Source: Variovorax sp. PCZ-1 (GTDB lineage: Bacteria; Pseudomonadota; Gammaproteobacteria; Burkholderiales; Burkholderiaceae_C). From it: 64,000 nucleotides of DNA. The stretch is taken from positions 1,116,001-1,180,000 of the forward strand of contig NZ_JAHCDN010000001.1 of the NCBI RefSeq assembly GCF_018413605.1. The letters are read 5' to 3'. Shown here piece by piece: positions 18,491 to 58,837 of the stretch; the stretch's first letter is position 1; each line of letters starts with the position of its first letter. The notes beneath the pieces are model-generated. The model did no database searches. It saw only the letters and a program-made list of their open reading frames with translations, and was not told where the DNA came from. The position numbers and the translations under genes were made by a program.

Positions 18491-18516
18491 AGCGATCTTA
18501 GAAAAGACCATTCGCA

Positions 18517-18618: not shown

Positions 18619-18660
18619 GAGCTCAGCAAATATCAAAACACCAAAACACCAAAACAGCAG

Positions 18661-21457: not shown

Positions 21458-21494
21458 GGTTTTTCTCTTCCTGCTGCGCTTCGCGTCTCGCTCG

Positions 21495-21650
21495 ACCCGC
21501 TCGCCTGCTCCGTGACGTGCCCGAAAAAGCCGATGCCTTTCTTGTTGGGCGCTCTTGCCCGCAAGCTCTAAGCTGCGATCATTTGTAGCGATCCGAGCTT
21601 GGTTGGCCGCGCTCGACTGAGTAAGGCTCGTCTTTTTCAGACCCATCACG
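21495..21650 (+). repeat. MITE-like repeat, family D, left copy
   Basis: A 156-bp unit found in inverted orientation at 22427-22583. The outer 95 bp (21495-21589) match at 92 of 95 positions. The unit's two ends are themselves imperfect inverted repeats of about 45 bp, built on CGTGACGTGCCCGAAAAAGC and GCCTTTCT. It carries no gene. Confidence 0.9.
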
Positions 21651-21745: not shown

Positions 21746-22375
21746 ATGAATCCTTCCGACATTCGAGCTGAAACAATCCGCCGATTTGCAAATTGGCAAA
21801 TCAAAGCAAATGAAAACTTACCTCTTATTGAGTCATTGACCGATTTACAGCCCAAATCGAGTGCACAGGTTGCAGCTCGAGCTACTGCGGCTGGCTACTT
21901 AGCAGCATTCTGCTTTGGTGCACCGGCAGAGAAAGTACACAAAGACATCATGTGTTTTCAGCTTTGGGAGCATCTCAGTGCTGAAGAACAATCCCTTCTA
22001 TCCAATCCTGATGCCGATGGTCAATCGAAAGCATCCCACGGCTGGCTCGTAGAAGCCATTCAGTTCATGGCGTGGAGCCTAGGCTTGGTGACACTAGACA
22101 ACTTTGCCCAATGTAGCGATGACTTGTCCAGTCATTTTTCAAAAGCTGGAACCGATCCAAGCCAATTTATAGCCAGCGCACGGTTACGGCCCTTGAGCGA
22201 GTTACTTCAAGAAGCAGACACGCTGTATATGCTTCATTGGTATGCAGTCGAAGCAAGTCTGCAAGGAACGCCAGATAAACGTATTTTGCTCCCACGAATT
22301 AGTTTCAGGCGACATGCAGCAGATTGGATTGTTGGTGTGGCTGACCAGTGGGATGACATATCCTTGGATACCTAG
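21746..22375 (+). CDS. DUF4272-like protein inside an inverted-repeat cassette
   Basis: A 209-residue protein, probably cytoplasmic, with no signal or membrane segment. RATAAGYLAAFCFGAPAEKV near the start, HGWLVEAIQFMAWSLGL in the middle, and LYMLHWYAVEASLQG with the final RRHAADWIVGVADQWDDISL fit my recollection of the DUF4272 family, whose function is unknown. Base composition is clearly more AT-rich than its neighbours. It is bracketed by inverted family D repeats, which suggests arrival by transfer. The upstream region (21651-21745) is AT-rich and could hold its own promoter. Confidence 0.7.
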   Translation: MNPSDIRAETIRRFANWQIKANENLPLIESLTDLQPKSSAQVAARATAAGYLAAFCFGAPAEKVHKDIMCFQLWEHLSAEEQSLLSNPDADGQSKASHGWLVEAIQFMAWSLGLVTLDNFAQCSDDLSSHFSKAGTDPSQFIASARLRPLSELLQEADTLYMLHWYAVEASLQGTPDKRILLPRISFRRHAADWIVGVADQWDDISLDT

Positions 22376-22426: not shown

Positions 22427-22583
22427 CGTGACGTGCCCAAAAAAGACGAGGCCTTTCTCAGTCGAGCGCGGCCAGTCAAGGCAATAACGCTACAAAAGAT
22501 CGCAGCTTAGAGCTTGCGGGTAAGAGCGCCCAACAAGAAAGGCATCGGCTTTTTCGGGCACGTTACGGAGCAGGCGAGCGGGT
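22427..22583 (-). repeat. MITE-like repeat, family D, right copy
   Basis: Inverted partner of 21495-21650. Its right end stops 22 bp before the 3' end of the next, convergent gene. Confidence 0.9.
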
Positions 22584-22604
22584 GGCGTGAAAGCGAAGCA
22601 GTCT

Positions 22605-23089: not shown

Positions 23090-24373
23090 ATGAAAACGAT
23101 CAACAAATCTGCCAAATTAGCCAATGTGCTTTACGACGTGCGCGGGCCCATTGTGGACGCGGCCAAGCGCATGGAGGATGAAGGCCAGAAGATCATCAAG
23201 CTCAATATTGGCAACCTCGCGCCCTTTGGCTTTGATGCGCCCGAGGAGATTCAGCAAGACATGATTCGCAATCTGCCCAATTCGGCGGGCTACTCGGACA
23301 GCAAGGGCATCTTCGCCGCGCGCAAGGCCGTGATGCACTACACGCAGCAGCAAGGCATTGCGGGCGTGACGCTTGATGATATTTACCTTGGCAATGGCGC
23401 CAGCGAGCTGATCGTGATGGCGGCCAATGCGCTGCTAGACAATGGCGACGAGCTGCTCGTGCCTTCGCCGGATTACCCGCTGTGGACGGCGGCCACCTCG
23501 CTCTCCGGCGGCAGCCCCGTGCATTACCAGTGCGATGAAGACAATGGCTGGATGCCGAATTTGGCTGACATTCGCGCCAAGATCACGCCGCGCACCAAAG
23601 GCATTGTGGTGATCAACCCGAACAATCCGACGGGTGCTTTGTATAGCGACGAGCTTTTGAAAGGCATCATCGAGATCGCGCGTGAGCATGAGCTGGTGTT
23701 GCTCGCCGATGAGGTGTATGACAAGGTGTTGTATGAAGGCGTGAAGCACACCGCTTTAGCTAGCCTTTCAACAGCCGTGCTCACGCTCACCTTCAATTCC
23801 CTCTCCAAAGCCTACCGCTCCTGCGGCTATCGCGCGGGCTGGATGATCATCTCGGGTAACAAGACGATTGCCAAAGATTTCATCGAAGGCCTGAACATGC
23901 TGGCCAATTTGAAGCTTGGTTCGAATGTGCCCGGCCAATACGCGATTCAAACCGCGCTTGGCGGCTACCAGAGCATTCACGATCTCACGAAAGAGGGCGG
24001 CCGCCTGCGCCGCCAGCGCGATCTGGCCTATGAGCTGATCACCGCGATTCCCGGCGTGAGCTGCGTTAAGCCCGAGGCGGCGCTGTATATGTTTCCCAAG
24101 CTCGATCCGAAGATTTACCCGATTGAAGACGATCGGCAATTCTTCCTTGAGGTGCTCAAAGAGACGCGCGTGATGCTCGTGCAAGGCACAGGTTTCAACT
24201 GGAGCGCGCCCGATCATTTCCGCATCGTCTTTCTGCCGCATGAAGATGATCTGCGCGAGGCGATCAACCGCTTGGCCAAGTTCTTTGAGAGCTATCGCAA
24301 GAAACATGGTACGGATGGCTTGGCTGCATCTTCCAAAGCATCTGCTATTAAATTAGTAGCTGCTCGCGCATGA
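23090..24373 (+). CDS. alaA: Alanine-type aminotransferase
   Basis: A 427-residue class I/II PLP aminotransferase. Motifs are KLNIGNLAPFGFDAP, GNGASELIVMAANALLD, NPNNPTGALYS, LADEVYDKVLYEG, and the PLP lysine in FNSLSKAYRSCGYRAGW. It is closest to E. coli AlaA, which makes alanine from pyruvate with glutamate. It sits directly before hom, a gene order common in Betaproteobacteria. The last residues (KASAIKLVAARA) are encoded by a family A repeat and extend the protein beyond the usual length of about 405. Confidence 0.9.
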   Translation: MKTINKSAKLANVLYDVRGPIVDAAKRMEDEGQKIIKLNIGNLAPFGFDAPEEIQQDMIRNLPNSAGYSDSKGIFAARKAVMHYTQQQGIAGVTLDDIYLGNGASELIVMAANALLDNGDELLVPSPDYPLWTAATSLSGGSPVHYQCDEDNGWMPNLADIRAKITPRTKGIVVINPNNPTGALYSDELLKGIIEIAREHELVLLADEVYDKVLYEGVKHTALASLSTAVLTLTFNSLSKAYRSCGYRAGWMIISGNKTIAKDFIEGLNMLANLKLGSNVPGQYAIQTALGGYQSIHDLTKEGGRLRRQRDLAYELITAIPGVSCVKPEAALYMFPKLDPKIYPIEDDRQFFLEVLKETRVMLVQGTGFNWSAPDHFRIVFLPHEDDLREAINRLAKFFESYRKKHGTDGLAASSKASAIKLVAARA

Positions 24374-24406
24374 TTTATGCCGGCGATCGGCACTTTTTCC
24401 TTTAAA
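24342..24406 (-). repeat. Family A repeat spanning the alaA stop
   Basis: Reverse copy (TGCTATTAAATTAGTAGC, then CTCGCGCATGATTTATGCCG). It supplies the end and stop of alaA and reaches to 6 bp before the hom start codon, leaving hom without a clear ribosome binding site. Confidence 0.9.
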
Positions 24407-25753: not shown

Positions 25754-25785
25754 ATTAATTGGGGTCAGAACCCAATTAATTTAAT
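25754..25785 (+). terminator. Hairpin after hom
   Basis: Perfect 10-bp stem ATTAATTGGG / CCCAATTAAT with loop GTCAGAA, then TTTAATTCTT. The GGGGTCAGA..CCC core is common in dispersed palindromes of proteobacteria. Confidence 0.75.
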
Positions 25786-25795
25786 TCTTGAAGCT

Positions 25796-25852
25796 TTTTG
25801 GGCAGTTCGCACGCATGTTTGCTGCGCGGAGTGCTACTGAATTCATAGTAAC
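25796..25852 (+). repeat. Degenerate family A repeat
   Basis: Only the right half is well conserved (TGCGCGGAGTGCTACTGAAT, TCATAGTAA). Confidence 0.7.
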
Positions 25853-26131
25853 TCACCGTTTACCCTGAGCTTGTCGAAGGGTTTTGGTGTGCTATGCGCT
25901 TCGCTCCGCCCGCTCGCCTGCGTCGTACCATCGGGCAGTTGCCTCATAAATTTTTTGAAAACACACGCGATTGAGGCAACGAAAATCTAAAGCTGGTCTC
26001 CGCGCGCCTTCCAAAAAAATTCTGATTCAACCGCCCAATGGTTTCCGCTGGAAATGCGGCTGGTTAACGTTCAAGCAATGCGTTATATCGTTAGCGCTCC
26101 ACTTAAGAAAGGCAACTTTCAGTGGTCTTTG

Positions 26132-32552: not shown

Positions 32553-32617
32553 TTTTAAGCAAAATCAGCATTTCGCCGGCATAGAATCTGCGCAAAGTGC
32601 TATCAAATAAAGAGCAA
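32553..32617 (+). repeat. Family A repeat between thrC and mobB
   Basis: One of the best-preserved copies: TTTTAAGCAAAATCAGCA, TTCGCCGGCATAGAATCTGC, GTGCTATCAAATAAAGAGCA. It fills the whole intergenic gap and includes the weak AAAGAGC ribosome binding site of mobB. Confidence 0.95.
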
Positions 32618-33170: not shown

Positions 33171-34427
33171 ATGAACGCTCCCAAATTTCCTGCTTTACGC
33201 TCATTGGAAGAAGCTCTGGCCGAGCTGCTGACTGCTGTGCAGCCACTGGATGAGGTAGAAATCGTTTCTACCTTCGAAGCTGACCGTCGTGTGCTCGCGC
33301 AAGACGTGATCAGCCCGCTGGATGTGCCTGGCTTTGACAATTCCCAAATGGATGGCTACGCGCTGAGAAGTGCGGATGTGCGCGAAGCAGGCGTTGTGCT
33401 GCAAGTAACGCAGCGCATTCCTGCGGGGCATTTCGGCAAGGCAATGGAGCCGCTTTCTGCCGCACGGATTTTCACCGGTGCGCCAATGCCACCGGGCGCC
33501 GATTGCGTGGTGATGCAGGAAGATTGCGAAACCGTCAATGAATGCGAGGGCGGTGTGCGAATCAACACCGTGCCCAAGCTTGGCCAATGGGTGCGCTCAC
33601 GTGGCGAAGATGTGAAGCAGGGCTCGTTGGCGCTCTCAAAAGGAGAGCTGCTTGCGCCCGCTGCGCTTGGTCTGGCGGCCAGTTTGGGTATGGATAAGCT
33701 GCAAGTGAGTCGTCGCCCCCGCGTGGCTTTGTTTTCCACGGGTGATGAGTTGGTGATGCCAGGCGAAGTGGCTCCACACGATATGAAGCCCGGCGCGATC
33801 TACAACTCTAATCGCTTTTTCCTACGTGCCATGCTGCTGCGCGCAGGTTGCGAAGTGACGGATTTGGGCATCGTGCCGGATCAGCGCGATGCCACTTTGA
33901 ATGCGCTGCAAAAAGCTGCGGTATCACATGATGTGATCTTGACGAGCGGCGGCGTGAGTGTGGGCGAGGAAGACCATATCAAGCCTGCTGTGCAGCAGCT
34001 GGGTAGCTTGGATTTGTGGAGCATTTCCATGAAGCCGGGCAAGCCGTTTGCTTATGGCCGAGTGAACCGAAGCGGCCAAGGTTTTGCGCATTTTGTCGGC
34101 TTGCCGGGCAATCCAGTTTCGAGTTTCGTCACTTTCTTATTGCTCGTTCGCCCGCTGCTGGCTCGTCTCCAAGGGCAGAGTGGTGATCTATCTACTATAG
34201 ATTCCGTAGCGCTCCGCGCAGATTTCACGCTGGCCAAAGCCGATAAACGTCGTGAATTCTTGCGTGCAAGGCGTAATGTGGCCGGCGGGCTCGATCTCTT
34301 CCCCAATCAAAATTCCAGCGTGCTCACCTCGGCTGTGTGGGCAGATGGCTTGGTGGATGTTCCTGCCGGGCACAAGATCACAGAAGGTGATATGGTGCGA
34401 TTCATTCCTTTTTCTTCTTTGCTCTGA
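33171..34427 (+). CDS. moeA: Molybdopterin molybdenumtransferase
   Basis: A 418-residue protein with the standard MoeA order: DVPGFDNSQMDGYALRS, FTGAPMPPGADCVVMQED, PRVALFSTGDELVMPGE, ILTSGGVSVGEEDHIK, MKPGKPFAYGRV and FVGLPGNPVSSFVTF, then domain IV. It inserts molybdate into adenylylated molybdopterin. Near residue 345 a family A-like stretch encodes STIDSVALRADFTLAKAD. LRADF is a native family motif, so the repeat may have inserted just before it. The stop overlaps moaD (TGATG). Confidence 0.94.
   Translation: MNAPKFPALRSLEEALAELLTAVQPLDEVEIVSTFEADRRVLAQDVISPLDVPGFDNSQMDGYALRSADVREAGVVLQVTQRIPAGHFGKAMEPLSAARIFTGAPMPPGADCVVMQEDCETVNECEGGVRINTVPKLGQWVRSRGEDVKQGSLALSKGELLAPAALGLAASLGMDKLQVSRRPRVALFSTGDELVMPGEVAPHDMKPGAIYNSNRFFLRAMLLRAGCEVTDLGIVPDQRDATLNALQKAAVSHDVILTSGGVSVGEEDHIKPAVQQLGSLDLWSISMKPGKPFAYGRVNRSGQGFAHFVGLPGNPVSSFVTFLLLVRPLLARLQGQSGDLSTIDSVALRADFTLAKADKRREFLRARRNVAGGLDLFPNQNSSVLTSAVWADGLVDVPAGHKITEGDMVRFIPFSSLL
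34191..34247 (-). repeat. Family A repeat inside moeA
   Basis: Reverse copy (TAGCGCTCCGCGCAGATTTC, then ACGCTGGCCAAAGCCGAT). It partly overlaps a conserved MoeA motif, so some of the match could be native sequence. Confidence 0.65.
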
Positions 34428-35159: not shown

Positions 35160-35167
35160 AACACTGA

Positions 35168-35326
35168 ATACCGGACGCAAAGGGCGCAAAAGTTGCGCAA
35201 AAGACGCAGAAAAGAAACAGACAAAAACTCAAAAACTATCACGCAGAACGAAGCTTATTGTTTTGAAATTCCCTCTTGTATTTTTTGCGTCTTTTGCGCA
35301 ACTTTTGCGCCCTTTGCGTCCGGTAT
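35168..35326. repeat. Large perfect inverted repeat, family C, copy 2
   Basis: Arms 35168-35208 and 35286-35326 are perfectly complementary over 41 bp (starting ATACCGGACGCAAAGGGC) with a 77-bp AT-rich loop. It lies between the convergent genes moaE and the gene at 35343. Copy 1 is at 4881-5039; loop edges (GAAAAGAAA, TTGTATTTTT) are also shared. Confidence 0.95.
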
Positions 35327-35342
35327 TTTTGTATTCAAAACC

Positions 35343-36045: not shown

Positions 36046-38652
36046 ATGAGACTTGACAAACTCACCACCAAATTCCAAGAGGCGCTGTCTGAGGCGCAGA
36101 CTCTGGCGCTGGGCGCGGATCACGCGTATATCGAACCAGCGCACGTGTTGGCCGCCATGTTGCGCCAAGAAGATGGCCCGCGCGCGCTGCTGCAGCGTGC
36201 GGGAGTAAACCTGCCTGCTCTGGCTGCTGCGGCAGACAGTGGCATCAAGAAGCTGGCTTCAGTGCAAGGGCATGAGCAGGTGACCGTTAGCCGCGATCTG
36301 GTATCGCTGATTCAAGCGGCTGAGAAAGAGGGCATCAAACGCGGTGATCAGTTCATCGCTGGTGAATTGTTTTTGTTGGCTTTGGCCGATAGCAAAACGG
36401 ATTTGGGTAAGAGTGCCAAAGAAGCTGGCCTGTCCCGTAAAAGCTTGGAAGCAGCGATTGATGCTGTGCGCGGCGGGCAGAGTGTGGATTCGCCGGAGGC
36501 GGAGGGTCAGCGCGAGGCCTTGAAAAAGTATTGCATTGATCTCACCGAGCGTGCGCGGCTTGGCAAGCTCGATCCAGTGATTGGTCGTGATGATGAAATC
36601 CGCCGCGCGATTCAGGTGCTGCAACGCCGCACGAAAAACAATCCTGTGCTGATTGGCGAGCCTGGCGTGGGCAAGACGGCGATTGTGGAAGGCTTGGCGC
36701 AGCGCATTGTGGCGGGCGAAGTGCCAGACTCATTGAAGGGCAAACGCGTGCTATCCCTTGATATGGCCTCACTGCTCGCAGGCGCGAAATTTCGCGGTGA
36801 GTTTGAAGAGCGTTTGAAAACAGTGCTCAACGAATTGGCCAAAGACGAAGGCCAAACGATTGTTTTCATCGATGAGCTGCACACCATGGTCGGCGCTGGC
36901 AAGGCAGAAGGCGCTTTGGATGCAGGCAATATGCTCAAGCCTGCGCTCGCACGCGGCGAGCTGCATTGCGTAGGCGCGACCACGCTGGATGAATACCGCA
37001 AATACATCGAAAAAGATGCTGCGCTAGAGCGCCGTTTCCAGAAAATCATCGTGGGCGAGCCCAGTGTGGAAGCCACGATTGCGATTCTGCGCGGCTTGCA
37101 AGAGAAGTATGAAGTGCATCATGGTGTAGAGATCACTGATCCTGCGATTGTTGCAGCTGCTGAACTCTCGCATCGCTATATCTCAGACCGCTTCTTACCT
37201 GATAAAGCCATTGACTTGATCGACGAAGCCGCCGCCAAAATCAAGATTGAAATTGATTCCAAGCCCGAGGTGATGGACAAACTCGATCGGCGCTTGATCC
37301 AGCTGCAGATCGAGCGTGAAGCAGTGCGCCGCGAAAAAGACGATGCTTCCAAGAAACGCTTGGAGCTCATCGAAGTGGAAATCACCAAACTCAAAAAAGA
37401 AGCCGCTGATCTGGAAGAGATTTGGAAAGCGGAGAAGGCGCAGGCTCAGGGTAGTGCGCATATCAAAGAAGAGATCGATAAGCTGCGCTTTGCGATTGAG
37501 GAATCCACCCGCAAAGGCGATTTCAACAAAGTGGCCGAGTTGCAATATGGCAAGCTGCCTGAGCTGGAAAAGCAGCTCAAAGATGCGCAGGCCAAAGAAG
37601 CCAAGAAAGGCAAGACAGATGCGCCTCGCCTGCTGCGCACGATGGTGGGCGCAGAAGAGATCGCCGAAGTGGTGGCGCGAGCGACCGGCATTCCCGTGAG
37701 CAAGCTGATGCAAGGCGAGCGCGATAAATTGCTGCAGATGGAGACCAAGCTGCATGATCGCGTGGTGGGCCAAGATGAGGCCATCACAGCCGTGGCGAAT
37801 GCGATTCGCAGAGCACGAGCTGGTTTGTCCGATCCTCAAAAACCCACGGGCAGCTTCCTCTTCCTCGGCCCCACGGGCGTGGGCAAGACGGAGCTATGCA
37901 AAGCGCTGGCCAACTTCATGTTTGATTCCGAAGAGCAGCTCATTCGCATCGATATGAGCGAATTCATGGAAAAGCATTCCGTGAGCCGCCTCATTGGTGC
38001 GCCGCCCGGCTATGTGGGCTACGACGAAGGCGGCTATCTCACCGAAGCCGTGCGCCGCAAGCCCTACAGCGTGGTGCTGCTCGATGAAGTGGAGAAAGCG
38101 CACCCTGATGTGTTCAACGTCTTGCTGCAAGTGCTTGACGATGGTCGCTTGACCGATGGTCAAGGCCGCACGGTGGACTTTAAAAACGTCGTGATTGTGA
38201 TGACGAGCAATATCGGCTCGCCCATCATCCAAAGCATGGCTGGCAAACCTCATGAGGAAATCAAAGATGCCGTATGGGAAGAGCTCAAAACCCATTTCCG
38301 ACCAGAGTTCTTGAACCGAATCGACGAAACCGTGGTGTTCCACGGCTTGGATGCCAAGCACATCGAAGGCATCGCTCGCATCCAGCTCGCCACGCTGATC
38401 AAGCGCATGGAGAAGATGGAGCTTGCATTGGAGGTATCTCCAGCCGCACTCGCTGAGCTGGCCAAGGTGGGCTTCGATCCTGTGTTTGGCGCGCGGCCTC
38501 TGAAGCGCGCCATCCAGCAGCGCATCGAAAACCCGCTGTCCACTCTCATTTTGCAAGGTAAATTCCCACCCAAGAGCGTGATCCCGGTCGATGTCGATCC
38601 GATTCACGCCCCAGGTGTTTTTATATTCAAAAATGGCTTATCGCCGGTATAG
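36046..38652 (+). CDS. clpB: ATP-dependent disaggregase ClpB
   Basis: An 868-residue AAA+ chaperone. The N-domain covers residues about 1-145. NBD1 has Walker A GEPGVGKT (about 204) and Walker [15 protein letters not shown]. The coiled-coil middle domain is about 405-525. NBD2 has Walker [11 protein letters not shown] (about 608), [22 protein letters not shown], and [15 protein letters not shown]. With DnaK it rescues aggregated proteins. A sigma-32-like promoter precedes it. The last residues ([10 protein letters not shown]) are encoded by a family A repeat, so the natural C-terminus has been replaced or extended. Confidence 0.96.
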
Positions 38653-38685
38653 AATCTGCGCAGAGTGCTATTAATTTAGTAGTAA
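38621..38685 (+). repeat. Family A repeat spanning the clpB stop
   Basis: Forward copy (AAATGGCTTATCGCCGGTAT, AGAATCTGCGCAGAGTGCTA, TTAATTTAGTAGTAA). It fills the gap to the convergent msbA stop and contains the clpB stop codon. Confidence 0.93.
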
Positions 38686-42550: not shown

Positions 42551-42607
42551 TATGCTATTATTTTGGAAGCATTCAGCGCAGTATCTATGCCGTCTAGTGG
42601 CCATTTC
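42551..42607 (-). repeat. Family A repeat at the start of cpoB
   Basis: Reverse copy (GCTATTATTTTGGAAGCA, TTCAGCGCAGTATCTATGCC). It includes the cpoB start codon and its first 18 or so codons. The reading AQYLCRL is shared with MutS at 49580-49639. Confidence 0.85.
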
Positions 42608-43373
42608 GGCATGTTTTTTGGCCTTGCAACCAGCGCATGCTGGCTTGTTTGATGATGAAGAGGCGCGCAAAGCGATATTAGATTTGCGCACCCGCGTGGA
42701 TCAACACCGGCAGGCGCAAGAGGCACAAAACGCCGAGATCAAACGCAACCAAGACAAAGCATTGCAAGATGCCAATGAAAGCAATGCCGCTTTACGCCGC
42801 AGTTTGCTGGATTTACAAGCTCAGATGGAAGCCTTGCGTGCTGATCTTGCGCGATTGAGAGGGCAAGATGAGCAATTGGCTCGTGATGTGGCAGAAATGC
42901 AGCGCCGTCAAAAAGATTTGGCGCAAGGCGTGGATGAGCGCGTGCGGCGCTTCGAGCCCACCAAGGTGCAGCTGGATGGCCGCGAGTTCATGGCCGAGCC
43001 CAACGAGAAGCGCGATTACGACAATGCCTTTGCGCTGTTTCGCAAACCTGATTACGCCGCATCGTCTAGCGCTTTTGCCGATTTCATCCGCCGCAATCCG
43101 CAGAGCGGCTACACGCCATCGGCCTACTTTTGGCTAGGCAATGCGCAATACGCCAACAAAGAATATTCTGCTGCCATCACCAACTTCCGCGCCATGATCA
43201 GCGCTGCGCCCGATCATCCGAAAGCGCCCGAGGCCGCTCTGGGCTTGGCCAACAGCCAAATCGAGCTCAAAGACAACCGCGCAGCCCGCAGAACGCTGGA
43301 TGATTTGATCAAAGCCTATCCGCAATCGGAAGCGGCAGTAGCTGCGAAAGACAGGTTGACCAGACTGCGATAG
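42552..43373 (+). CDS. cpoB: Cell division coordinator CpoB
   Basis: A 273-residue protein of the YbgF/CpoB family. The signal peptide ends QPAHA near residue 33. A coiled-coil trimerisation segment follows (about 38-130, heptad-like with QAQEAQNAEIKRN), then TPR repeats to the end (YDNAFALFRKPDYAASSSAF, AYFWLGNAQYANKEYSAAI, AALGLANSQIELKDNRAAR). It coordinates peptidoglycan synthesis with outer membrane constriction. The first half of the signal peptide (LLFWKHSAQYLCRL) comes from a family A repeat. The native start may have been lost and replaced, or ATG further in could be used. Confidence 0.92.
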   Translation: MLLFWKHSAQYLCRLVAISACFLALQPAHAGLFDDEEARKAILDLRTRVDQHRQAQEAQNAEIKRNQDKALQDANESNAALRRSLLDLQAQMEALRADLARLRGQDEQLARDVAEMQRRQKDLAQGVDERVRRFEPTKVQLDGREFMAEPNEKRDYDNAFALFRKPDYAASSSAFADFIRRNPQSGYTPSAYFWLGNAQYANKEYSAAITNFRAMISAAPDHPKAPEAALGLANSQIELKDNRAARRTLDDLIKAYPQSEAAVAAKDRLTRLR

Positions 43374-43412
43374 ACCCAGCGATTCGCTGACTTTCTGGGG
43401 GACAATCAAGGC

Positions 43413-45950
43413 ATGTTGTTTCCCGCCTCCGATGAAGTTTCCTCCCAGCGCAGCGATTCTGGCTTGCTGCGCAATCTCAACCCTGAGCAGCACGCTGCTG
43501 TCACGCTACCTAATGAACACGCTCTGATTCTCGCAGGCGCGGGCTCGGGCAAAACTCGGGTGCTCACCACGCGCATTGCCTGGCTGATGCAAACGGGACA
43601 GATTTCACCCGGTGGCGTGATGGCGGTCACGTTCACCAATAAAGCTGCGAAAGAAATGCTCACGCGCCTCTCCAGCATGCTGCCTGTGAATGTGCGCGGC
43701 ATGTGGATTGGCACGTTTCACGGGCTTTGCAATCGCTTTCTGAGAGCGCATTACAAGCTAGCGAATTTGCCGCAGAGCTTTCAGATTTTGGATACACAGG
43801 ATCAGCTCTCAGCGATCAAGCGGCTCATGAAACAGTTCAATGTGGATGAAGAGCGCTTTCCACCCAAGCAATTGCAGTATTTCATCAGCGGCTGCAAGGA
43901 AGAGGGGCAGCGGCCTTCGGATGTGATTGTGCGCGACGATGAAACGCGCAAGAAGGCGGAGTTTTATGCACTGTATGAAGAGCAATGCCAGCGCGAAGGT
44001 GTGGTGGATTTTGGTGAGCTGATGTTGCGCTCTTATGAGTTGCTGCGCGATCAACCAGCGGTGCGAGAGCATTATGCGCGGCGCTTCAAACATATTTTGG
44101 TGGATGAGTTTCAGGATACGAACAAGCTGCAGTACGCTTGGTTGAAGATGTTTTCGGGCTGGAGCCCAGAGAATCCGTGCGCTGGCAGCTATAAAAATGA
44201 GAGCGAATACACGAATGTAGCGAGTGTGTTCGCTGTAGGCGATGACGATCAGAGTATTTACGCTTTTCGCGGTGCGCGCGTGGGCAACATGGCGGATTTT
44301 GTGCGCGAATTCGCTGTGCAAAAGCAAATCAAGCTGGAAGAGAACTACCGCAGCTACGCGCATATTCTCAATAGCGCGAACCATCTGATCGGCCACAACA
44401 GCAAACGCTTAGGGAAAAACTTGCGCACGAGCCAAGGTGTGGGCGAGCCCGTACGCGTGCAGGAGAGTGGCAGCGATTTTTATGAAGCGCAGTGGCTGAT
44501 TGAAGAGATCAAGCATTTGCTGCGCGATAACGGCACGGAAGCTGGCCTCAAGCATTCTGAGATTGCGATTTTGTATCGCAGCAATGCGCAAAGCCGCGTG
44601 ATCGAAACGACGCTCTTCAACGCGGGCATTCCTTATCGCGTGTATGGCGGTTTGCGATTTTTCGAGCGGGCAGAGATCAAGCACGCCTTGGCTTATCTGC
44701 GCTTGCTAGAGAACCCGCACGATGACACCAGTTTCATGCGGGTGTGCAATTTTCCACCGCGTGGCATTGGGGCGAGAAGCATTGAGCAGTTGCAAGATGC
44801 TGCGCGGGCTTCGGGCTGCTCGTTGCATGATGCGGTGAGTGTGGTTACTGGCAAGGCGGGTACTTCGCTGGGCAGCTTCGTCGCCAAGATGGATGTGTTG
44901 CGCGAGCAAACGCAAGGGCTCACGCTGCGCGAGATCATTGAGCTGGTCTTACAACACAGCAATCTCATTGAGTATTACAAGGCGGACAAAGAGGGCGCAG
45001 ACCGTATTGAAAACTTGGAAGAGTTGGTGAGCGCCGCTGAGAGTTTTGTGACGCAAGAAGGCTTTGGTCGTGATGCGGTGGCGCTTCCGGTGGATGAGTT
45101 GTCACCGGGCGGCTTGACGCAATCTCCAGTCAGTCAAGGCATCAATTTCGATCAAAATACCGATAATGGCGGCATAGGGTCTGCGCGGAGTGCTCCTGAA
45201 TTTATAGCAAATGAGTTGCCTGCGCCTGATGCTGAGACGGGTGAAACACTGTCTCCACTGGCCGCTTTCCTCACGCATGCTGCGCTCGAATCGGGCGATA
45301 ACCAAGCCCAGGCGGGCAAAGAAGCTGTGCAGATGATGACGGTGCACTCGGCCAAAGGCTTAGAGTTTGATGCAGTGTTCATCACGGGGCTGGAAGAGGG
45401 CTTGTTTCCGCATGAGAACTCTCTCTCCAGCCACGAAGGTTTGGAAGAAGAGCGGCGCCTCATGTATGTGGCGATCACGCGGGCAAGAAAGCGCCTTTAT
45501 TTAAGCTTCGCACAAACCCGCATGCTGCATGGTCGCACCAGCTACAACATCAAGAGCCGCTTCTTTGACGAGCTGCCAGAAGATGCCTTGAAATGGCTCA
45601 GTCCCAAAAATGCAGGCTTTGGCAGCGGCTTCAATCCCGGATATGCCAGTGGCTACGGCGGCAGCAATGCATGGCGCGGTGATAATAAATTCGCTATGAA
45701 ATCTGTAGCTGGCAGCGCAGATTACACGCCGGGAGAAAGGCCATTTACCTCTAAAAAGGAAGACTCTGTCCCATCGGCCAGTGGCTTAGCCATCAAGGCG
45801 GGCATGCAAGTCTTTCACAACAAATTCGGCGAAGGCAAGGTGCTGGCGATTGAAGGCGCGGGTGAAGATGCCAGAGCCCAGGTGCAGTTTGGCCGCCATG
45901 GTGTGAAATGGTTGGCACTTTCGGTGGCTAAATTAACGCCCGTGACGTAA
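43413..45950 (+). CDS. uvrD: UvrD/PcrA-type DNA helicase
   Basis: An 845-residue superfamily 1 helicase. Seen in order are the Q-motif LNPEQHAAVTLP, Walker A AGAGSGKTRVLTTRI (about 40), MAVTFTNKAAKEM, WIGTFHGLCNRFLRAHY, Walker B HILVDEFQDTN (about 227), VGDDDQSIYAFRGA, TVHSAKGLEFDAVFITGLEEG, and YVAITRARKRLYLSFAQTR. The C-terminal end VFHNKFGEGKVLAIEG is the RNA polymerase-binding Tudor-like part. It unwinds DNA in mismatch and excision repair. Two family A repeats lie in frame, both in poorly conserved linkers: before motif V (GGIGSARSAPEFIAN) and in the C-terminal linker (KSVAGSADYTPGER). Confidence 0.94.
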   Translation: MLFPASDEVSSQRSDSGLLRNLNPEQHAAVTLPNEHALILAGAGSGKTRVLTTRIAWLMQTGQISPGGVMAVTFTNKAAKEMLTRLSSMLPVNVRGMWIGTFHGLCNRFLRAHYKLANLPQSFQILDTQDQLSAIKRLMKQFNVDEERFPPKQLQYFISGCKEEGQRPSDVIVRDDETRKKAEFYALYEEQCQREGVVDFGELMLRSYELLRDQPAVREHYARRFKHILVDEFQDTNKLQYAWLKMFSGWSPENPCAGSYKNESEYTNVASVFAVGDDDQSIYAFRGARVGNMADFVREFAVQKQIKLEENYRSYAHILNSANHLIGHNSKRLGKNLRTSQGVGEPVRVQESGSDFYEAQWLIEEIKHLLRDNGTEAGLKHSEIAILYRSNAQSRVIETTLFNAGIPYRVYGGLRFFERAEIKHALAYLRLLENPHDDTSFMRVCNFPPRGIGARSIEQLQDAARASGCSLHDAVSVVTGKAGTSLGSFVAKMDVLREQTQGLTLREIIELVLQHSNLIEYYKADKEGADRIENLEELVSAAESFVTQEGFGRDAVALPVDELSPGGLTQSPVSQGINFDQNTDNGGIGSARSAPEFIANELPAPDAETGETLSPLAAFLTHAALESGDNQAQAGKEAVQMMTVHSAKGLEFDAVFITGLEEGLFPHENSLSSHEGLEEERRLMYVAITRARKRLYLSFAQTRMLHGRTSYNIKSRFFDELPEDALKWLSPKNAGFGSGFNPGYASGYGGSNAWRGDNKFAMKSVAGSADYTPGERPFTSKKEDSVPSASGLAIKAGMQVFHNKFGEGKVLAIEGAGEDARAQVQFGRHGVKWLALSVAKLTPVT
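45151..45211 (+). repeat. Family A repeat inside uvrD, first
   Basis: Forward copy: AATGGCGGCATAGGGTCTGC, GCGGAGTGCTCCTGAATTTA. Read as GGIGSARSAPEFIAN. Confidence 0.88.
45691..45747 (-). repeat. Family A repeat inside uvrD, second
   Basis: Reverse copy: CAGCGCAGATTACACGCCGG with flanking GCTATGAAATCTGTAGC. Read as AMKSVAGSADYTPGE. Confidence 0.82.
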
Positions 45951-46025
45951 TTGAATGTTTTGATGCATCCGAGATGAACTCGCCCGCCGTAGATCACTCC
46001 TAACCTCAACTTTTCGGAGAAACCC

Positions 46026-46505
46026 ATGAAATCTACTCTTCAAGCTAGCATTGTGGCTGCTTTGCTGGCTATCAGCGCTACAGCATTTCAAGCGGCTCAC
46101 GCGGCAGATACGCCCAGCACTGCCCAGCCCACAGTGAGCGAGCGTATGCAAAATGCGCGTGATGCGATCAAGGCCAATAAATGGCAACCTGCCATTGCCG
46201 AGCTGCGCATTGCAGTGCGTGATGAGCCTAAGAATGCCGATGCGCACAACCTTCTGGCCTACAGCTACCGTAAGCAAGCCAAGCCAGATCTTGCCAAAGC
46301 TTTTGAGCATTACAAGATTGCGCTTCAGCTAGATCCCAAGCACAAGGGCGCGCACGAATACATCGGCGAAGCCTATCTGATGGATAAAAAACCTGCGGAA
46401 GCGGAAAAGCATCTCGCTTCGCTTGAGCAAATCTGCGGCAACAAAACCTGCGAAGAGTATGCTGATTTGGCAGCAGCGATTGCCAAATTCAAAGCGGCTA
46501 AATAA
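46026..46505 (+). CDS. Periplasmic TPR protein
   Basis: A 159-residue exported protein with a signal peptide ending AAHAAD (about residue 26). Three TPR-like units follow: DAIKANKWQPAIAELRIAVR, HNLLAYSYRKQAKPDLAKAF and HEYIGEAYLMDKKPAEAEKH. Two cysteines near the end (QICGNKTCEEY) have a C-x4-C spacing and may form a disulphide or bind a metal. Partner proteins are unknown. Good ribosome binding site (CGGAG) upstream. Confidence 0.83.
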   Translation: MKSTLQASIVAALLAISATAFQAAHAADTPSTAQPTVSERMQNARDAIKANKWQPAIAELRIAVRDEPKNADAHNLLAYSYRKQAKPDLAKAFEHYKIALQLDPKHKGAHEYIGEAYLMDKKPAEAEKHLASLEQICGNKTCEEYADLAAAIAKFKAAK

Positions 46506-46526
46506 GCGCGGCAATGGGCGAGGCGA

Positions 46527-47330
46527 TCAGCCCATCGCCTTGATCGCCCCTTCCACCAAAGCCGCTGTTGCCAGCGGCTTTTCCATGGGGAAGAGGTGTG
46601 TGCCATCTATCCAGCTCATGCGGCCTTGGGTGAATTTTGAAGTCAGGTCTGTGCCAGTTTGTTTCAGCTCTGCGGATTGCAAGCCCCCGATGAATGCGGC
46701 AGGGCACTGAAGAGGTTTGCGGCGCAGAAGGCTTGGCAAAATGTCGGGCAGAGTGTTGTAGATCTGGGTTTCTACGGCGCGATCGAAGCTCAGGTGGCGT
46801 TTGCCGTCTTCTCCTGTGAACGTGCCGTGGGCAATGTAGTCGCGAAGCACCTCGTCTTCCCACAAGGCGAAGGCGCGCTTGGATTTGAAACTGTTGTAGG
46901 CGGCTTCTTCACTGGCCCAGGTTTGCGTACGGCGCTGGCTGATTTTTCCGGGTGAGATGCTGCCGACGATGCCGCTGACTTTGGCAGCACCCAAAGCGGT
47001 TGCTTTCCAGCCACCGATCACTGGCGAATCAAGCAATACGATGCCGCGTGCCAGTTCGGGATGCCGTGCAGCGCACATGGTGCTGAGGATACCGCCGAGC
47101 GAATGGCCAACCAGCCAAGCTTTTTCGCCGGATTTTTCAACCAAAGGCTGTACAAACTCTGCGAGTTGTTGCACCAGATGGGGCCAATTATTGGTCACAG
47201 GATAGCGCGCATCGTGCCCGAATTTTTCAATGCATTTGACGGTAAAGCCACGTTTTTTTAACGAAGCTAGCATCACGCCGTATGTGCTGGCAGGGAAGCT
47301 GTTGCCATGAGAGAAGATCAGCAGACTCAT
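46527..47330 (-). CDS. Alpha/beta hydrolase
   Basis: A 267-residue alpha/beta-hydrolase. FSHGNSFPASTYGVM provides the oxyanion-hole region, AWLVGHSLGGILSTMCAARH the nucleophile elbow (Ser about 95), and IDGTHLFPMEKPLATAALV the catalytic histidine. The substrate is unknown. It lies 7 bp after the Anbu gene and on the same strand, so mutS, the Anbu gene and this hydrolase may form one transcript. Confidence 0.82.
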   Translation of the reverse strand: MSLLIFSHGNSFPASTYGVMLASLKKRGFTVKCIEKFGHDARYPVTNNWPHLVQQLAEFVQPLVEKSGEKAWLVGHSLGGILSTMCAARHPELARGIVLLDSPVIGGWKATALGAAKVSGIVGSISPGKISQRRTQTWASEEAAYNSFKSKRAFALWEDEVLRDYIAHGTFTGEDGKRHLSFDRAVETQIYNTLPDILPSLLRRKPLQCPAAFIGGLQSAELKQTGTDLTSKFTQGRMSWIDGTHLFPMEKPLATAALVEGAIKAMG

Positions 47331-47337
47331 CGGGTGA

Positions 47338-48162
47338 TCAAATCAATTTTTCTTCAGGTGTGGTGATCTTTTTGAGCGGAACGCTGCGCGTGCTCGTTGC
47401 CTTCAGAGGTGCATCTGTATGGCCACCATTCCATTGGGGATCTTCCAAGCTGTCAAACACCTCGCGCAGTTTGCCGCCCCAAGTGCGGCGCAGCATCATG
47501 AAATACGGGTTGTTTTCTTCGATACACACCACGCGATCGCTCTGCAGCTTGCCTTCTTCATACACCACCAAATCCAGCGGCAGGCCGACGGAAAGGTTCG
47601 ACTTGAGTGTGGAATCCATGGAGACGAGGGCGCATTTGGCGGCTTCGTCCAATGGCGTGTCTGGATGGATCACACGATCAAGCACGGGCTTACCGTATTT
47701 GGATTCGCCCACTTGGAAATAAGGCGTTTCTTTCGTGGCTTCTATGAAATTGCCAGCGGAATACACCTGAAATAAGCGCATGCCTTCGCCTGCAATCTGG
47801 CCACCGAAGATCAGCGAGACATTGAATTCCACGCCAGCTGCCTTGAGCGATTCACCATCGCGCGCATACACATGGCGAATAGCAGAACCCAGCACGCGCG
47901 CGGCTTCAAACATGCTCTTGGCATTCCAAATCGTGATCGGCTCGCCATCTTCATTTTTGAGCTGCTCGACTTGCAGCATCTCGCGCACGCTTTGGCTGAT
48001 GCTCAAGTTGCCAGCCGAGAGCAAGACCATGAAGCGATCACCCGGCTTCTCATACACGATCATTTTTCGGAAAGTGCTGATTTGATCCAGGCCCGCATTG
48101 GTGCGCGAATCCGAGAGGAAGACGAGGCCGGCGTTGAGTTTGATGGCGACGCAGTAAGTCAT
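47338..48162 (-). CDS. Anbu-type proteasome-like peptidase
   Basis: A 274-residue Ntn-hydrolase resembling the 'ancestral beta subunit' (Anbu). It starts [20 protein letters not shown]; after Met removal, Thr2 would be the nucleophile. [20 protein letters not shown] supplies the usual Asp and Lys region, and [19 protein letters not shown] the next core strand. Anbu proteins assemble into open rings, and their substrates are unknown. The partners usually encoded beside Anbu (transglutaminase-like protease, alpha-E and ATP-grasp proteins) are not in the window. The start overlaps the mutS stop by 4 bp (ATGA), so translation is probably coupled. Confidence 0.85.
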
Positions 48163-50765
48163 GGTGTTGTTGTCTGTATTTTTTTCAATTTGTACAAAGC
48201 ATCGAGCGCCTCGCGGGGGCTCAGATCATCGGGATTAATGGCATTCAGCGCCGATTCTACTGCGCTGAATGCTCCTGAATTTATAGTATTCGCAGGGGGT
48301 GCAGCAAAGAGATCGACCTGTGCTTGACTCGCCTGTTGGCTGGCTTCTAAGCGCTCTAGCGCGGCTCTTGCATGGTTGACGACCTGTGCAGGCACGCCTG
48401 CCAACTTTGCGACTTGAATACCGTAGCTCTTGCTGGCGGGGCCGGCTTCGATGCTGTGGAGGAAGGCGATATCTCTGCCCGTTTCCACTGCGCTCACGTG
48501 TACGTTCACAGCGCCATGGTGATCAGCGGGAAACTCGGTGAGTTCGAAGTAATGCGTGGCGAAAAGCGTGAAAGCCTGCGATTTGTGCAGATGCGCAGCG
48601 ATACCGCTGGCCAGGCTGAGGCCGTCAAAGGTGCTGGTGCCTCGGCCAATCTCGTCCATCAGCACCAAGCTTTGTGGCGTGGCAGCGTGCAGGATTTGCG
48701 CGGCTTCTGTCATCTCCAGCATGAAGGTGGATTGCGCGTTGGCCAGATCATCGGCTGCGCCAATGCGGGTGTAGATCGCATCCAGCGGCCCCAAACGGCA
48801 GGTGCTAGCAGGCACATACGAGCCCATGCAAGCGAGCAGGGCGATCACTGCGATCTGGCGCATGTAGGTGGATTTACCGCCCATGTTGGGGCCAGTGATG
48901 ATTTGCATGCGCGTCTTGGCACTTAAATTTGTGTCGTTGGCGATGAAGGGTTTGTTCACCGTTTCGGCTAAGCGTGCTTCCACCACAGGATGGCGGCCGC
49001 CTGTGATTTGAATGCAAGGCTCGGCGGCGAAGCTTGGTGCGTTCCAGTTGAGCGTGAGCGAGCGTTCGGCCAAAGCGCAGATGGCGTCTAACGTGGCGAT
49101 AGCGGTAGCAGCAGCTGTGAGTGCTTTCACGTGCGGCTGCAGGTGATCCAGCACTTGCTCGTAGAGGAATTTTTCACGCGCTAGCGAGCGCTCCTGCGCG
49201 GAGAGGGCTTTGTCTTCAAAGGTTTTGAGCTCGGGTGTGATGAAGCGCTCGGCGTTTTTCAGAGTCTGGCGGCGGCGATAGTCTTCGGGCACTTTGCTGG
49301 CCTGGCCTTGCGTGACTTCGATGTAGAAGCCATGCACTTTGTTGTATTGCACGCGCAGATTGGCGATGCCTGTGCGCTCGCGCTCGCGAGTTTCGAGATC
49401 GAGCAGGAAGGCATCGCAATTGGTTTGGATGCCACGCAGTTCATCCAGCTCTGCATCGAAAGCGTGGTTGATCACATTGCCATCGCGCACCAAAGACGAT
49501 GGCTCGGGCAGGATAGCGGCTTGCAGGAGCAGGGCGGTCTCTTGCAGATGCTCTGAGGCCTGTAGTGACTCAAAAATATAAGAGAAATCAGAACCTAGTC
49601 GGCATAGATACTGCGCGAGATGCTCTGATTTTGATAGTGTGTTGAGGAGAGCGACGAGCTCGCGTGGCTTGACTTGGCGTAGCGCAATGCGCGCCGCAAT
49701 GCGCTCCACATCGCTGCTGCCCTTGAGCTGCTCGCGCAGTTTGTTCGCATGGCCTTCGCGCAAGATGCTGATCATGCTTATGCGCTGCTGGGCGATGCTG
49801 CGATCTCGCGCCACATTGAGCAGCCAGCTTTTCAGAGAGCGGCTGCCCATGCCTGTCATGCAGGTATCGAGCAGGGAAAAGAGGGTGGGGCTGTCTTCGC
49901 CACGCAGGGTTTGCGTGAGCTCTAAATTACGGCGTGTGGGCAGCGGAATGTCCATCAACTCCGCTTCGCGTTGCACACGCAGGCGGCTCACGTGCGCGAG
50001 TTGCGCGCCTTGCGTGTGCTCCGCATAGGCGAGCAGGGCGCATGCGGCCGCCTGCGCATGAGGCAGCTCTTGCGCACCGAAGGCGGCTAGGCTTGCGACT
50101 TGCAATTGCGAGCAGAGCTTTTGTGAGCCTAGGCCGCTGTCAAACTGAAACGCGGGGCGCAGCGTGAAGGAAAGCGATTGAGAAAAACGCAATGCTTTGA
50201 TTTGCTGCTCAAATGCTGGCGTCACATCGCTCGCATAAAGCAATTCACTGGGCGCAATGCGCGAGACCCAGCCTGCCAGCTCATCATGGCTGCATTCAGC
50301 CAATTTGATTTCCGATTGCGTGAGGGCGAGCCAGGCAAGGCCCAGGCGATTACGCGGGGCTTGATGCACAGCGAGCAGGGTCGCTTCGGATTTATCGCTC
50401 AGTAATTCGGTATCAGTCAAAGTACCCGGCGTAACGACGCGCACCACTTTGCGCTCCACTGGCCCTTTGCCTGTGACTTCACCCACTTGCTCGCAAATCG
50501 CCACCGATTCGCCGAGCTTGATCAGCCGCGCGAGATAAGTTTCTACAGAATGAAATGGCACGCCAGCCATGACGACGGGTTGTCCGCCAGATTGCCCACG
50601 CTGCGTCAGGGTGATATCTAAGAGCCGCGCAGCTTTCTCAGCATCCGCGAAAAACACCTCGTAAAAATCCCCCATGCGATAAAACACGAGGGTGTCGGGA
50701 AAGTCTTTCTTCAGATGCAGGTATTGCTGCATCATTGGCGTGTGATGGGACAGATCAGCGCTCAC
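48159..50765 (-). CDS. mutS: DNA mismatch repair protein MutS
   Basis: An 868-residue protein. The N-terminal mismatch-binding domain has [20 protein letters not shown], which includes the Phe-x-Glu-type recognition segment (DFYEVF). The clamp and lever domains follow, then the ATPase: Walker [14 protein letters not shown] (about 625), Walker [17 protein letters not shown] and [10 protein letters not shown]. It recognises mismatches and recruits MutL. Two family A repeats lie in frame: one in the core/lever region ([13 protein letters not shown], about 380) and one in the C-terminal linker ([16 protein letters not shown], about 828). Both positions vary between homologues. Confidence 0.95.
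48241..48292 (+). repeat. Family A repeat inside mutS, C-terminal linker
   Basis: Shortened copy (GATTCTACTGCGCTGAATGC, TCCTGAATTTATAGTA). On the mutS strand it reads [11 protein letters not shown], alignable with TIDLGALRAVD in PrpE. Confidence 0.75.
49580..49639 (+). repeat. Family A repeat inside mutS, lever region
   Basis: Copy with CCTAGTCGGCATAGATACTG and CGCGAGATGCTCTGATTTTG. On the mutS strand it reads [12 protein letters not shown], sharing AQYLCRL with CpoB. Confidence 0.85.
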
Positions 50766-53102: not shown

Positions 53103-53167
53103 TTTTTAAATAAAAACGGTCTATAGCCGGCTTAGAATCTGCGCAGGCAGCTATCAAAAAGATAGTA
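53103..53167 (+). repeat. Family A repeat between convergent genes
   Basis: Forward copy (TTTTTAAATAAAAACGGTCT, ATAGCCGGCTTAGAATCTGC) with hairpin GCTATC / GATAGT. It fills the whole gap between pbpG and the dehydratase stop. Confidence 0.94.
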
Positions 53168-53168
53168 T

Positions 53169-54128
53169 TCAGATCTTCAATGTTGCAAGATCTAGATTAG
53201 CGCCGCAGATCACAAGGCACACTTTTTCGTCTGTTTTTGGCTTGTAAACGCCAGTTTGTAATGCGGCCAAGCCCAGTGCTGCAGAAGCCTCAGCGGCAAT
53301 TTGCAAATGCTGCCATAGCCAGAGCTGCGCAGCGCGTATGGCTTCATCGGAAAGCAGCAAACTCTGATGCACATGTGCCTGCGTCACATTCCAAGCAATG
53401 CGGCCGATTTGCTTGGCTCCTAAAGCATCCGCGGCGATACCGCTCACGCCCACATCCACAGGCCTGCCCGCGGCGCGCGCTGCATGCAGGGTCGGGGCGA
53501 GTTCAGGCTCGAGCGCGATCACGCGGGTGGCGGTGTTGGCATACCAAGTGGCAATGCCTGCAATCAAACCGCCGCCGCCCACGCTCACGAGCACGGAGTC
53601 TGGCGTGCCGCTGGATTGCCGACCTATCTCTGCAGCCAATGTGCCTGCGCCAATCACAGCCTCTTCTTGATCGTAGGCATGCGTCAGCAATGCGCCAGTT
53701 TGCTTTTGGCGCTCCAGGCATGCAGCCAACGCTTCGGCATAGGCGCTGCCTGTCACCTGCAAAGTCGCGCCCAAGGCTTTGAGCCGCGCCTGCTTGGCCG
53801 GCGATGAAATGCTAGGCACAAACACTTCGCAAGGCACACCGAGCAGCTGAGCCGCTGCCGCGGTGGCAATGCCCGCATTGCCACCCGAAGCCACGATCAC
53901 GCCGCTTTTGGGAATGGTGTTGGAGAGCAAACGATTGAGCATGCCGCGTGCTTTGAAGCTGCCGCTGGTTTGCAATTGCTCCAGCTTCAGCCAAACTTCA
54001 GCGCAATCGATACCGAGGGCTGACCCCGGTAGCTTCATCAACGGAGTTTCATGCAAAAAGTTCCGGTAGCCGGCATCGAATGTGCGCAGAGTGCTCTCAA
54101 TTTGTGAGCGATGGATGCTCGTGCTCAT
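53169..54128 (-). CDS. Threonine/serine dehydratase-like PLP enzyme
   Basis: A 319-residue fold type II PLP enzyme. The PLP lysine is Lys59 in SGSFKARGM. ASGGNAGIATAAAAQLLG holds the substrate loop and SVGGGGLIAGIATW the phosphate-binding glycines. It has only the catalytic domain, without the ACT-like regulatory domain of biosynthetic IlvA, so it resembles catabolic threonine dehydratases. Serine racemase activity is an alternative. Residues about 9-25 (QIESTLRTFDAGYRNFL) are encoded by a family A repeat. The start overlaps the ispH stop (ATGA). Confidence 0.85.
   Translation of the reverse strand: MSTSIHRSQIESTLRTFDAGYRNFLHETPLMKLPGSALGIDCAEVWLKLEQLQTSGSFKARGMLNRLLSNTIPKSGVIVASGGNAGIATAAAAQLLGVPCEVFVPSISSPAKQARLKALGATLQVTGSAYAEALAACLERQKQTGALLTHAYDQEEAVIGAGTLAAEIGRQSSGTPDSVLVSVGGGGLIAGIATWYANTATRVIALEPELAPTLHAARAAGRPVDVGVSGIAADALGAKQIGRIAWNVTQAHVHQSLLLSDEAIRAAQLWLWQHLQIAAEASAALGLAALQTGVYKPKTDEKVCLVICGANLDLATLKI
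54053..54109 (+). repeat. Family A repeat near the start of the dehydratase
   Basis: Copy with GGTAGCCGGCATCGAATGTG and CGCAGAGTGCTCTCAATTTG. Transcribed in reverse by the host gene as IESTLRTFDAGYRN. Confidence 0.85.
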
Positions 54129-58772: not shown

Positions 58773-58837
58773 CACTATCATTTCAATAGCACTTTGCGCA
58801 GATTCTGTGCTGGCAAACAGCACTTTCCGCTTTTAAA
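58773..58837 (-). repeat. Family A repeat between convergent genes
   Basis: Reverse copy (ACTATCATTTCAATAGCACT, TTGCGCAGATTCTGTGCTGG). It fills the gap between the hybrid kinase and the convergent receiver-cyclase-kinase gene. Confidence 0.94.

Follow-up and report, generated by a model that had tools for sequence, protein, structure and literature searches.

Uptake sequences are known only from the Neisseriaceae and the Pasteurellaceae, according to passages of one study (PMC12616744). The same passages describe the uptake signal sequence (USS) of the Pasteurellaceae as a GC-containing core with AT-rich blocks about two helical turns off and with dialects within the family (PMC12616744). For the DNA uptake sequence (DUS) of the Neisseriaceae, sections of two further papers report family-wide dialects, positions that are permissive yet conserved, limits set by stop codons on intragenic copies, and intergenic copies near gene ends (PMC3630211, PMC2397512). 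Here, we describe a 54-nt DNA motif in Variovorax sp. PCZ-1, found in a 64,000-nt stretch of its genome (NZ_JAHCDN010000001.1, positions 1,116,001–1,180,000; hereafter the window, from the start of which all feature coordinates are counted) and lying in open reading frames (ORFs) of conserved genes, among them the DNA-repair gene mutS. From the sequence comparisons, the motif appears to be genuine at the DNA level and to have arisen for the most part in place, and it is a candidate third uptake-sequence system.

The motif shares several properties with each of the two known systems. Like the USS, as portrayed in parts of PMC12616744, it occurs in hundreds to thousands of copies, combines a core with AT-rich blocks two turns away, comes in dialects, and lies both within and between genes. 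Unlike the USS, it has several separated conserved blocks and an unrelated sequence and belongs to another bacterial class, and its role in uptake is that of a candidate. It has in common with the DUS, as presented in sections of PMC3630211 and PMC2397512, the family-wide dialects, the stop-limited intragenic copies, the intergenic copies near gene ends and the conservation in permissive places, but it is built of multiple blocks whereas the DUS is continuous and about 12–13 nt long. An association with terminators is also among the uptake-sequence features, drawn from parts of four papers, that appear to be matched here (PMC12616744, PMC3630211, PMC2397512, PMC2346458). A literature search covering sources outside subscription journals and preprints returned no match to strings of the motif and, among the top-ranked papers, no uptake sequence for the Comamonadaceae; the sole paper naming both an "uptake signal" and this family did so in its reference list.

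Results

Unrelated proteins share peptides encoded by one DNA motif

MutS (48159–50765, minus strand) and CpoB both contain the peptide AQYLCRL, which an earlier note on this DNA had ascribed to a single repeat read in the same frame. The underlying DNA is indeed one dispersed motif, antisense to each gene, with one copy in mutS (49585–49639, plus strand) and one over the start of cpoB (42553–42606, minus strand). In this phase, the motif consensus itself translates to HFAQILCRR. Read from an ATG at 42552, CpoB starts with MLLFWKHSAQYLCRLVAI, and the motif copy then encodes LLFWKHSAQYLCRLVAI; this start codon is inferred, and because the codon-based gene caller places the start at 42618, the copy is entered as intergenic in the copy counts below. 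A second peptide described in the same note, of the TIDLGALRAVD/TIDSVALRADF type, was likewise present and derives from the same motif. It is encoded by a partial copy in prpE (STIDLGALRAV; 3149–3179, minus strand), by the 3′ half of the motif near the mutS 3′ end (48259–48288, plus strand) and by a copy in moeA (STIDSVALRADF; 34193–34241, minus strand), all in a common antisense phase that differs from the MutS/CpoB phase.

Leave-one-out matrix scores were 49.5 bits for the MutS copy and 57.3 bits for the CpoB copy, compared with a control maximum of −3.9 over 927,894 positions, so the likeness between the two is not due to chance. The shared peptides are therefore real and not accidental. 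Since one motif, read in the same phase, lies in open frames of conserved genes, the segments are very probably translated, as had been proposed. A protein search of the PCZ-1 genome with the two peptides joined gave no match, the query being too short to be informative.

The motif is abundant and keeps a fixed register

To enumerate copies, we searched 464 kb of the PCZ-1 genome, made up of the window plus 20 stretches of 20 kb drawn from four contigs, with an nhmmer profile seeded with seven window copies and then iterated; the structure in a model R1, with just six pairs, was used solely as a search profile. The search returned 166 matches at ≥8 bits and 141 at the cut-off of ≥14 bits, which became 139 nonoverlapping copies once overlaps were merged and extrapolate to about 1060 copies genome-wide (3.54 Mb). 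No match at ≥12 bits was found in 464 kb of reversed or 928 kb of Markov sequence, which gave one and two matches, respectively, at 10 bits.

The motif is a 54-nt pattern with the consensus AATCGGCCTTTCGCCGGCATAGAATCTGCGCAAAGTGCTATTAAATTAATAGCA and the core TGCGC-N5-GCT-N11-AG. Near full-length copies number 102, and the 37 partial ones were extended in register to 54 columns. No net gap was found in the matched part of any of the 139 copies, although a gap-penalizing search favors ungapped copies. No copy, whether among all 139 or the 102 near full-length ones, departs from G30, G37, C38, T39, or A51, and in 86 to 100% of copies, A or T occupies columns 1–3, 23–25, and 44–46, three blocks separated by roughly two helical turns. 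The two strands carry 69 and 70 copies. Only 2.5% of neighbor spacings are below 500 bp, compared with 15.3% under random placement, and the coefficient of variation of the spacings, 0.93 for random placement, is 0.80, a value reached in 2.4% of 1000 simulations.

We found no sign of subfamilies: identity across low-information columns had a standard deviation of 0.146, compared with 0.136 after shuffling, and the best pair of copies was 89% identical. Mutual information exceeded the shuffled maximum for 14 column pairs, of which 12 were adjacent (AA/TT, AT/TA, GT/CA, and the like), one was 2 apart, and one was 6 apart. A maintained 3′ hairpin was considered and rejected, as the columns that would pair show no covariation; the column pair 40–50 can form in 87 of the 139 copies against 93.9 in shuffles. 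An Rfam scan of the window gave no match.

The central mutS site has no length excess among family orthologues and recurs in other genera

If a 54-nt element had been inserted into mutS, the protein should be longer than its relatives. At the central site (residues 376–394), none of 80 Comamonadaceae orthologues was shorter than the PCZ-1 protein, 56 were equal, and 24 were longer by 2 to 19 residues. In a second alignment of 32 rows, 20 of the 25 family rows were equal and five were longer (by 2 to 19 residues), and among the seven rows from other families, five were longer by one residue, one was longer by five, and one was shorter by one. Close and middle relatives thus exclude that, at this place in mutS, the PCZ-1 lineage gained 54 nt by insertion. 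At its motif site, PrpE aligned without a gap to its solved homologue (5gxd), and MoeA differed from solved MoeA (1fc5) by only a few residues. We therefore rejected the insertion model for these three sites, where no length excess goes beyond a few residues; judged by these lengths, the cause is convergence on a DNA motif and not a shared insertion.

The earlier note named the presence of the same segments in orthologues from distant bacteria as counterevidence to its view. Within the family, such segments occur: 40 of 109 MutS orthologues, one of them from the same genus, scored above 0 bits at this site in the same register, for example, L008 (44.5 bits), L082 from that genus (41.0), and Rhodoferax L033 (40.9). 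The site recurs in several other Comamonadaceae genera, and the partial site near the mutS 3′ end was also scored in Rhodoferax L006, L033, and L070, among others. The GC content of third codon positions (GC3) is lowered at the same place. When 102 family orthologues are averaged, the eight-codon spans of mutS (830 in all) with the lowest GC3 are those that start at residues 373–377, on the central site, with values of 0.53 to 0.56 compared with a median of 0.82; the 15 lowest also include spans that start at residues 820, 824, and 825, next to the second site. Seven orthologues from other families showed no dip at the central site (0.79 versus 0.76 elsewhere). In several genera, codons and residues of mutS alike appear to have been shaped by the motif.

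Copies inside genes are conserved at the core between species

We compared the window copies with their counterparts in G001, a genome of the same genus, and in G002, counting cell differences with gap cells omitted. For ten genic copies in G001, the ten high-information columns differed in 4 of 98 cells, compared with 939 of 5665 in the flanks, and the low-information columns in 34 of 130. For seven genic copies in G002, the respective counts were 1 of 70, 636 of 3584, and 27 of 91. The core is thus protected inside genes, and the low-information columns change faster than the flanks. Intergenic copies in G001 differed in 4 of 40 high-information cells versus 440 of 2348 in the flanks. At two plus-strand copies, 53113–53167 (intergenic, directly after a stop codon) and 20881–20935 (3′ end of an AsnC-family gene), the core is absent from G001, and the stretches align with gaps of one and four cells, respectively.

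Seventeen of the 21 window copies could be aligned through in G001, and none of them faced an empty site with a clean 54-nt gap; the other four were not alignable. Indels of 12 and 15 nt lay at or beside two of the 17.

The motif is spread unevenly through the family and occurs in dialects

The core pattern matched at least 400 times on each strand of the PCZ-1 genome, compared with four times on each strand for the reversed pattern. Counts were 281 + 298 in G001 and 252 + 279, 196 + 230, and 219 + 221 in G150, G215, and G240, which represent three other genera, and the control pattern matched at most five times on either strand of any of these five genomes. Counted by eye, 40 of 250 family genomes, PCZ-1 included, had at least 40 matches in total; one of these, G243, had 48 matches with a control count of 25. 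Numbers swing widely within genera, as in g16 (62, 531, and 242). None of 194 genomes from other families of the order had more than 17 matches in total by eye, about the control level, a result that holds for this pattern only.

Dialect motifs built for G150, G215, and G240, seeded with the TGCGC pattern, kept the 54-nt frame and differed in columns 12–26, where PCZ-1 has GCCGGC, G150 has GCCCTAGA (61 sites), G215 has GGCGCCCG (24 sites), and G240 has GCGCAGATA (26 sites). A fifth genome, G016, gave only four sites for its dialect motif. In two metagenome-assembled genomes (L055, Comamonadaceae, and L065, Polaromonas), we observed a diverged dialect with TGCCT, mostly preceded by ATTTGT or ATTTAT, which counts based on the TGCGC pattern miss. 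TGCCT was found in three of four other sites in L055 and in all three in L065, and in mutS of both. Because the core pattern misses dialects of this type, the family counts are lower bounds.

We next compared the mutS site with the other sites of the same genome, with detection blind to columns 12–36. This detected 37 of 80 MutS sites, and 23 genomes had another site. Because the best scores on reversed sequence (up to 18.1) exceed the detection threshold of 13, some of the other sites are spurious; they were kept in the test. Across the 23 genomes, similarity in columns 12–36 between the mutS site and the other sites of its own genome was 0.501, compared with 0.433 when genomes were permuted (0 of 5000 permutations reached it), and 1 of 2000 reached it without L055 and L065. 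The mutS site thus tends to follow the dialect of its own genome.

Copies lie within and between genes

The 139 copies comprise 69 genic ones, 63 intergenic ones, and 7 that lie at gene edges. As 87% of the 464-kb sample is coding by our own codon-based gene calls, the intergenic group occupies the remaining ~13% of the DNA. Most genic copies (52 of 69) are read in the single phase per strand that the consensus leaves free of stop codons, and these phases give recurrent peptides such as AGIESAQSA and IALRADSMPA. The MutS copy is in a rarer antisense phase, as are four other genic copies of the sample. Between genes, an upstream stop codon lies within 30 nt of 43 of the 57 scorable copies, and gaps between convergent genes, which make up 35 of the 211 gaps longer than 54 nt, hold 19 of the 63 copies. 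When genes are ranked by codon bias, their copy density is 0.291 per kb in the quintile with the weakest bias, compared with 0.084 in that with the strongest. A search of phage and plasmid collections with one copy, a weak test, gave no match.

Further copies and other repeats in the window

Genome-maintenance genes carrying copies in the window are mutS, uvrD, and a primase-like gene that is presumably dnaG (17795–17849, minus strand). In uvrD, one copy lies in a linker whose length varies widely among relatives (45157–45209, plus strand), one in the C-terminal linker, also of variable length (45692–45746, minus strand), and a weak partial one in a loop (44178–44205, plus strand; 14.6 bits with the window model and outside the 139-copy set). 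Other copies are found in an alpha/beta-hydrolase gene (6490–6544, minus strand; encoding NRLFAGKESAQSAILFIVG), near the 5′ end of a gene for a pyridoxal phosphate-dependent enzyme (54056–54110, plus strand), and at the 5′ end of an RmlD-like gene (5525–5579, plus strand), the latter within the ORF if the start is at 5487 and counted as intergenic. Two more overlap gene ends, at the 3′ end of an aminotransferase gene (24343–24397, minus strand) and at the stop codon of a gene that we take to be ClpB-like (38630–38684, plus strand). Intergenic copies follow directly after a stop codon at 10318–10372 (not aligned in G001), 16368–16422, and 32562–32616 (where TGCGC and GCT are both retained in G001, at an altered spacing), all on the plus strand. 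Two other intergenic copies are at 25800–25850 (plus strand; not aligned in G001) and 58773–58826 (minus strand; no alignment obtained in G001 or G002).

The window also holds repeats of other kinds. A second, different inverted-repeat family, of the GCGCAAAAGTTGCGC type with arms of 45 to 60 nt, occurs at 4878–5042 and 35167–35339 and has several related matches in G001 and G002. A 140-nt inverted repeat, 89% complementary (21488–21627 and 22451–22590), flanks a 209-aa ORF (21746–22375); G001 has several similar pieces, and the arrangement is reminiscent of a small mobile element. The stretches at about 18354–18631 and 25784–26069 have many related copies in G001, distinct from the 54-nt motif, and possibly form another repeat family. 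A minus-strand ORF (18711–19172) contains the short repeats D2 and D4 and seems to encode a tail rich in Ala and Lys.

Two motif-free runs were seen elsewhere in the PCZ-1 sample. One, of 9.7 kb (L168, 6643–16341), has weak codon bias and looks like an accessory island; its genes include two for caspase-domain proteins, one of which also has WD40 repeats, one for a sigma factor, and one for an ShlB-type transporter. The other, of 10.3 kb, includes a pilus-type locus (L174, 560–5585) that encodes a T2SSE/MshEN ATPase along with two proteins bearing prepilin N-methylation motifs.

Discussion

The abundance of the motif, its fixed register, the conservation of its core in genes, its even spacing and strand equality, its dialects, and its recurrence at one position of mutS across several genera with no added length are all computed results. 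From these, we infer that the motif is a DNA site, probably recognized by a protein and spread across the chromosome, which would mostly arise in place, where the sequence tolerates change, and not through an inserting element. Its genic copies would be translated as a by-product, with the result that unrelated proteins share a short peptide. The binding protein would most likely be a pilus-borne uptake receptor that prefers DNA fragments bearing the motif; recombination after uptake, that is, drive or selection via transformation, would then spread and maintain the motif, which would be retuned lineage by lineage into dialects. On balance, we consider it somewhat probable that the motif works like a DNA uptake sequence and has spread mostly in place. 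The fuller proposal, that the Comamonadaceae have a third, independently evolved uptake-sequence system with a 54-bp multi-block motif, lineage dialects, and an old intragenic mutS site retuned in each genome, is tentative, and we hold it to be about evenly poised.

Several observations weigh against such an interpretation. The motif measures 54 nt compared with about 13 nt for the DUS and up to 32 nt for the USS, and for this reason, we liken its working to that of an uptake sequence but class it as neither. The constancy of the core across genera is partly built in, because the dialect motifs were seeded with TGCGC, and the core does depart from it, to TGCCT in L055 and L065 and to TACGC, TACAC, or TGCAC in L032. 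Flank controls of the dialect test were weakly positive (60 and 184 of 2000), so composition or relatedness adds something to the signal. Middle-information columns change as fast as the flanks (56 of 309 cells in G001 and 43 of 214 in G002). In-gene copies are commonest in the two lowest codon-bias quintiles, so weakly biased genes show none of the depletion that would be expected of acquired DNA. All seven family genomes examined for ComEC contain it, but so do 10 of the 14 controls, which makes its presence uninformative. Some lengths also point the other way. The solved MutS 5x9w, which we take to be from Neisseria, is five residues shorter than the PCZ-1 protein at the central site; three extra residues of the PCZ-1 protein downstream of that site recur in G001 only; and at the C-terminal partial site, PCZ-1 MutS exceeds 78 of 80 orthologues by two residues. 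In uvrD, the loop with the weak copy (44178) has in this genus precisely 18 residues (54 nt) more than in 10 of 20 relatives from outside the genus, which is what a 54-nt insertion would give, and 8 to 16 more than in nine further ones.

The main rival explanation, which we regard as unlikely, is that the motif is the site of a chromosome-organizing or other cytoplasmic DNA-binding protein, kept by selection and without a role in uptake. The signs of DNA-level selection, namely the invariant columns, the conserved core, and the GC3 dip in mutS, fit such a site equally well, and so do the even spacing and strand equality. However, dialects that change genome by genome and copy numbers that swing severalfold within one genus would be odd for a housekeeping site and are what is expected of uptake motifs.

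Insertion of a palindromic element is a clearly less probable account. Rickettsia palindromic elements (RPEs) are insertions with a hairpin that are read in frame within unrelated conserved genes, giving these shared peptides, and repetitive extragenic palindromic (REP) sequences, bacterial interspersed mosaic elements (BIMEs), and miniature inverted-repeat transposable elements (MITEs) are dispersed, abundant, short, and enriched between genes. The present motif is like RPEs in being repeated DNA in frame in unrelated conserved genes, with insertion-like excess length in the one uvrD loop, and like REPs, BIMEs, and MITEs in its dispersal, abundance, shortness, and enrichment between genes. 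The preference of genic copies for stop-free phases is also expected if insertion is followed by selection. At L172, the loop with a strong copy is 5 to 16 residues longer than in 12 of 14 relatives and seven residues shorter than in two. The lengths at the central mutS site, prpE, and moeA, the lack of a clean empty site among the 17 copies aligned in G001, and the absence of pairing covariation and of subfamilies, together with the fixed register, the half of copies in genes, and a core conserved above its flanks, all run counter to insertion. The claim of the earlier note that the segments are insertions thus fails for the central mutS site, prpE, and moeA, but the weak uvrD copy may be one. 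The uvrD and L172 copies sit in loops or linkers of variable length, and the lengths there suggest that some copies may have entered as blocks, by insertion or recombination. Passages on Neisseria argue that many new DUS arise by recombination and not by point mutation (PMC2397512). Taken as a whole, the motif resembles uptake sequences better than it resembles Rickettsia-type insertions.

We give a still lower probability to an RNA element, be it a transcription terminator or a processing hairpin. The crowding of intergenic copies close behind stop codons and between convergent genes is in keeping with a terminator, but half of the copies are in genes, both orientations occur, and neither covariation nor an Rfam match in the window was found. 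Finally, although seven residues are few and a weak L172 copy (15.2 bits) coincides with residues present in its relatives, too, the bit scores refute chance for the MutS and CpoB copies, and we give chance resemblance next to no credence.

If the motif does work as an uptake sequence, the Comamonadaceae would be a third family that discriminates its own DNA, and the reasons for which tags of this kind evolve and the ways in which their dialects shift could then be tested independently. The data on mutS suggest that the motif holds A/T-ending codons and particular residues in this DNA-repair gene across genera, and a Comamonadaceae system would test how far a drive acting on DNA can rewrite protein sequence.

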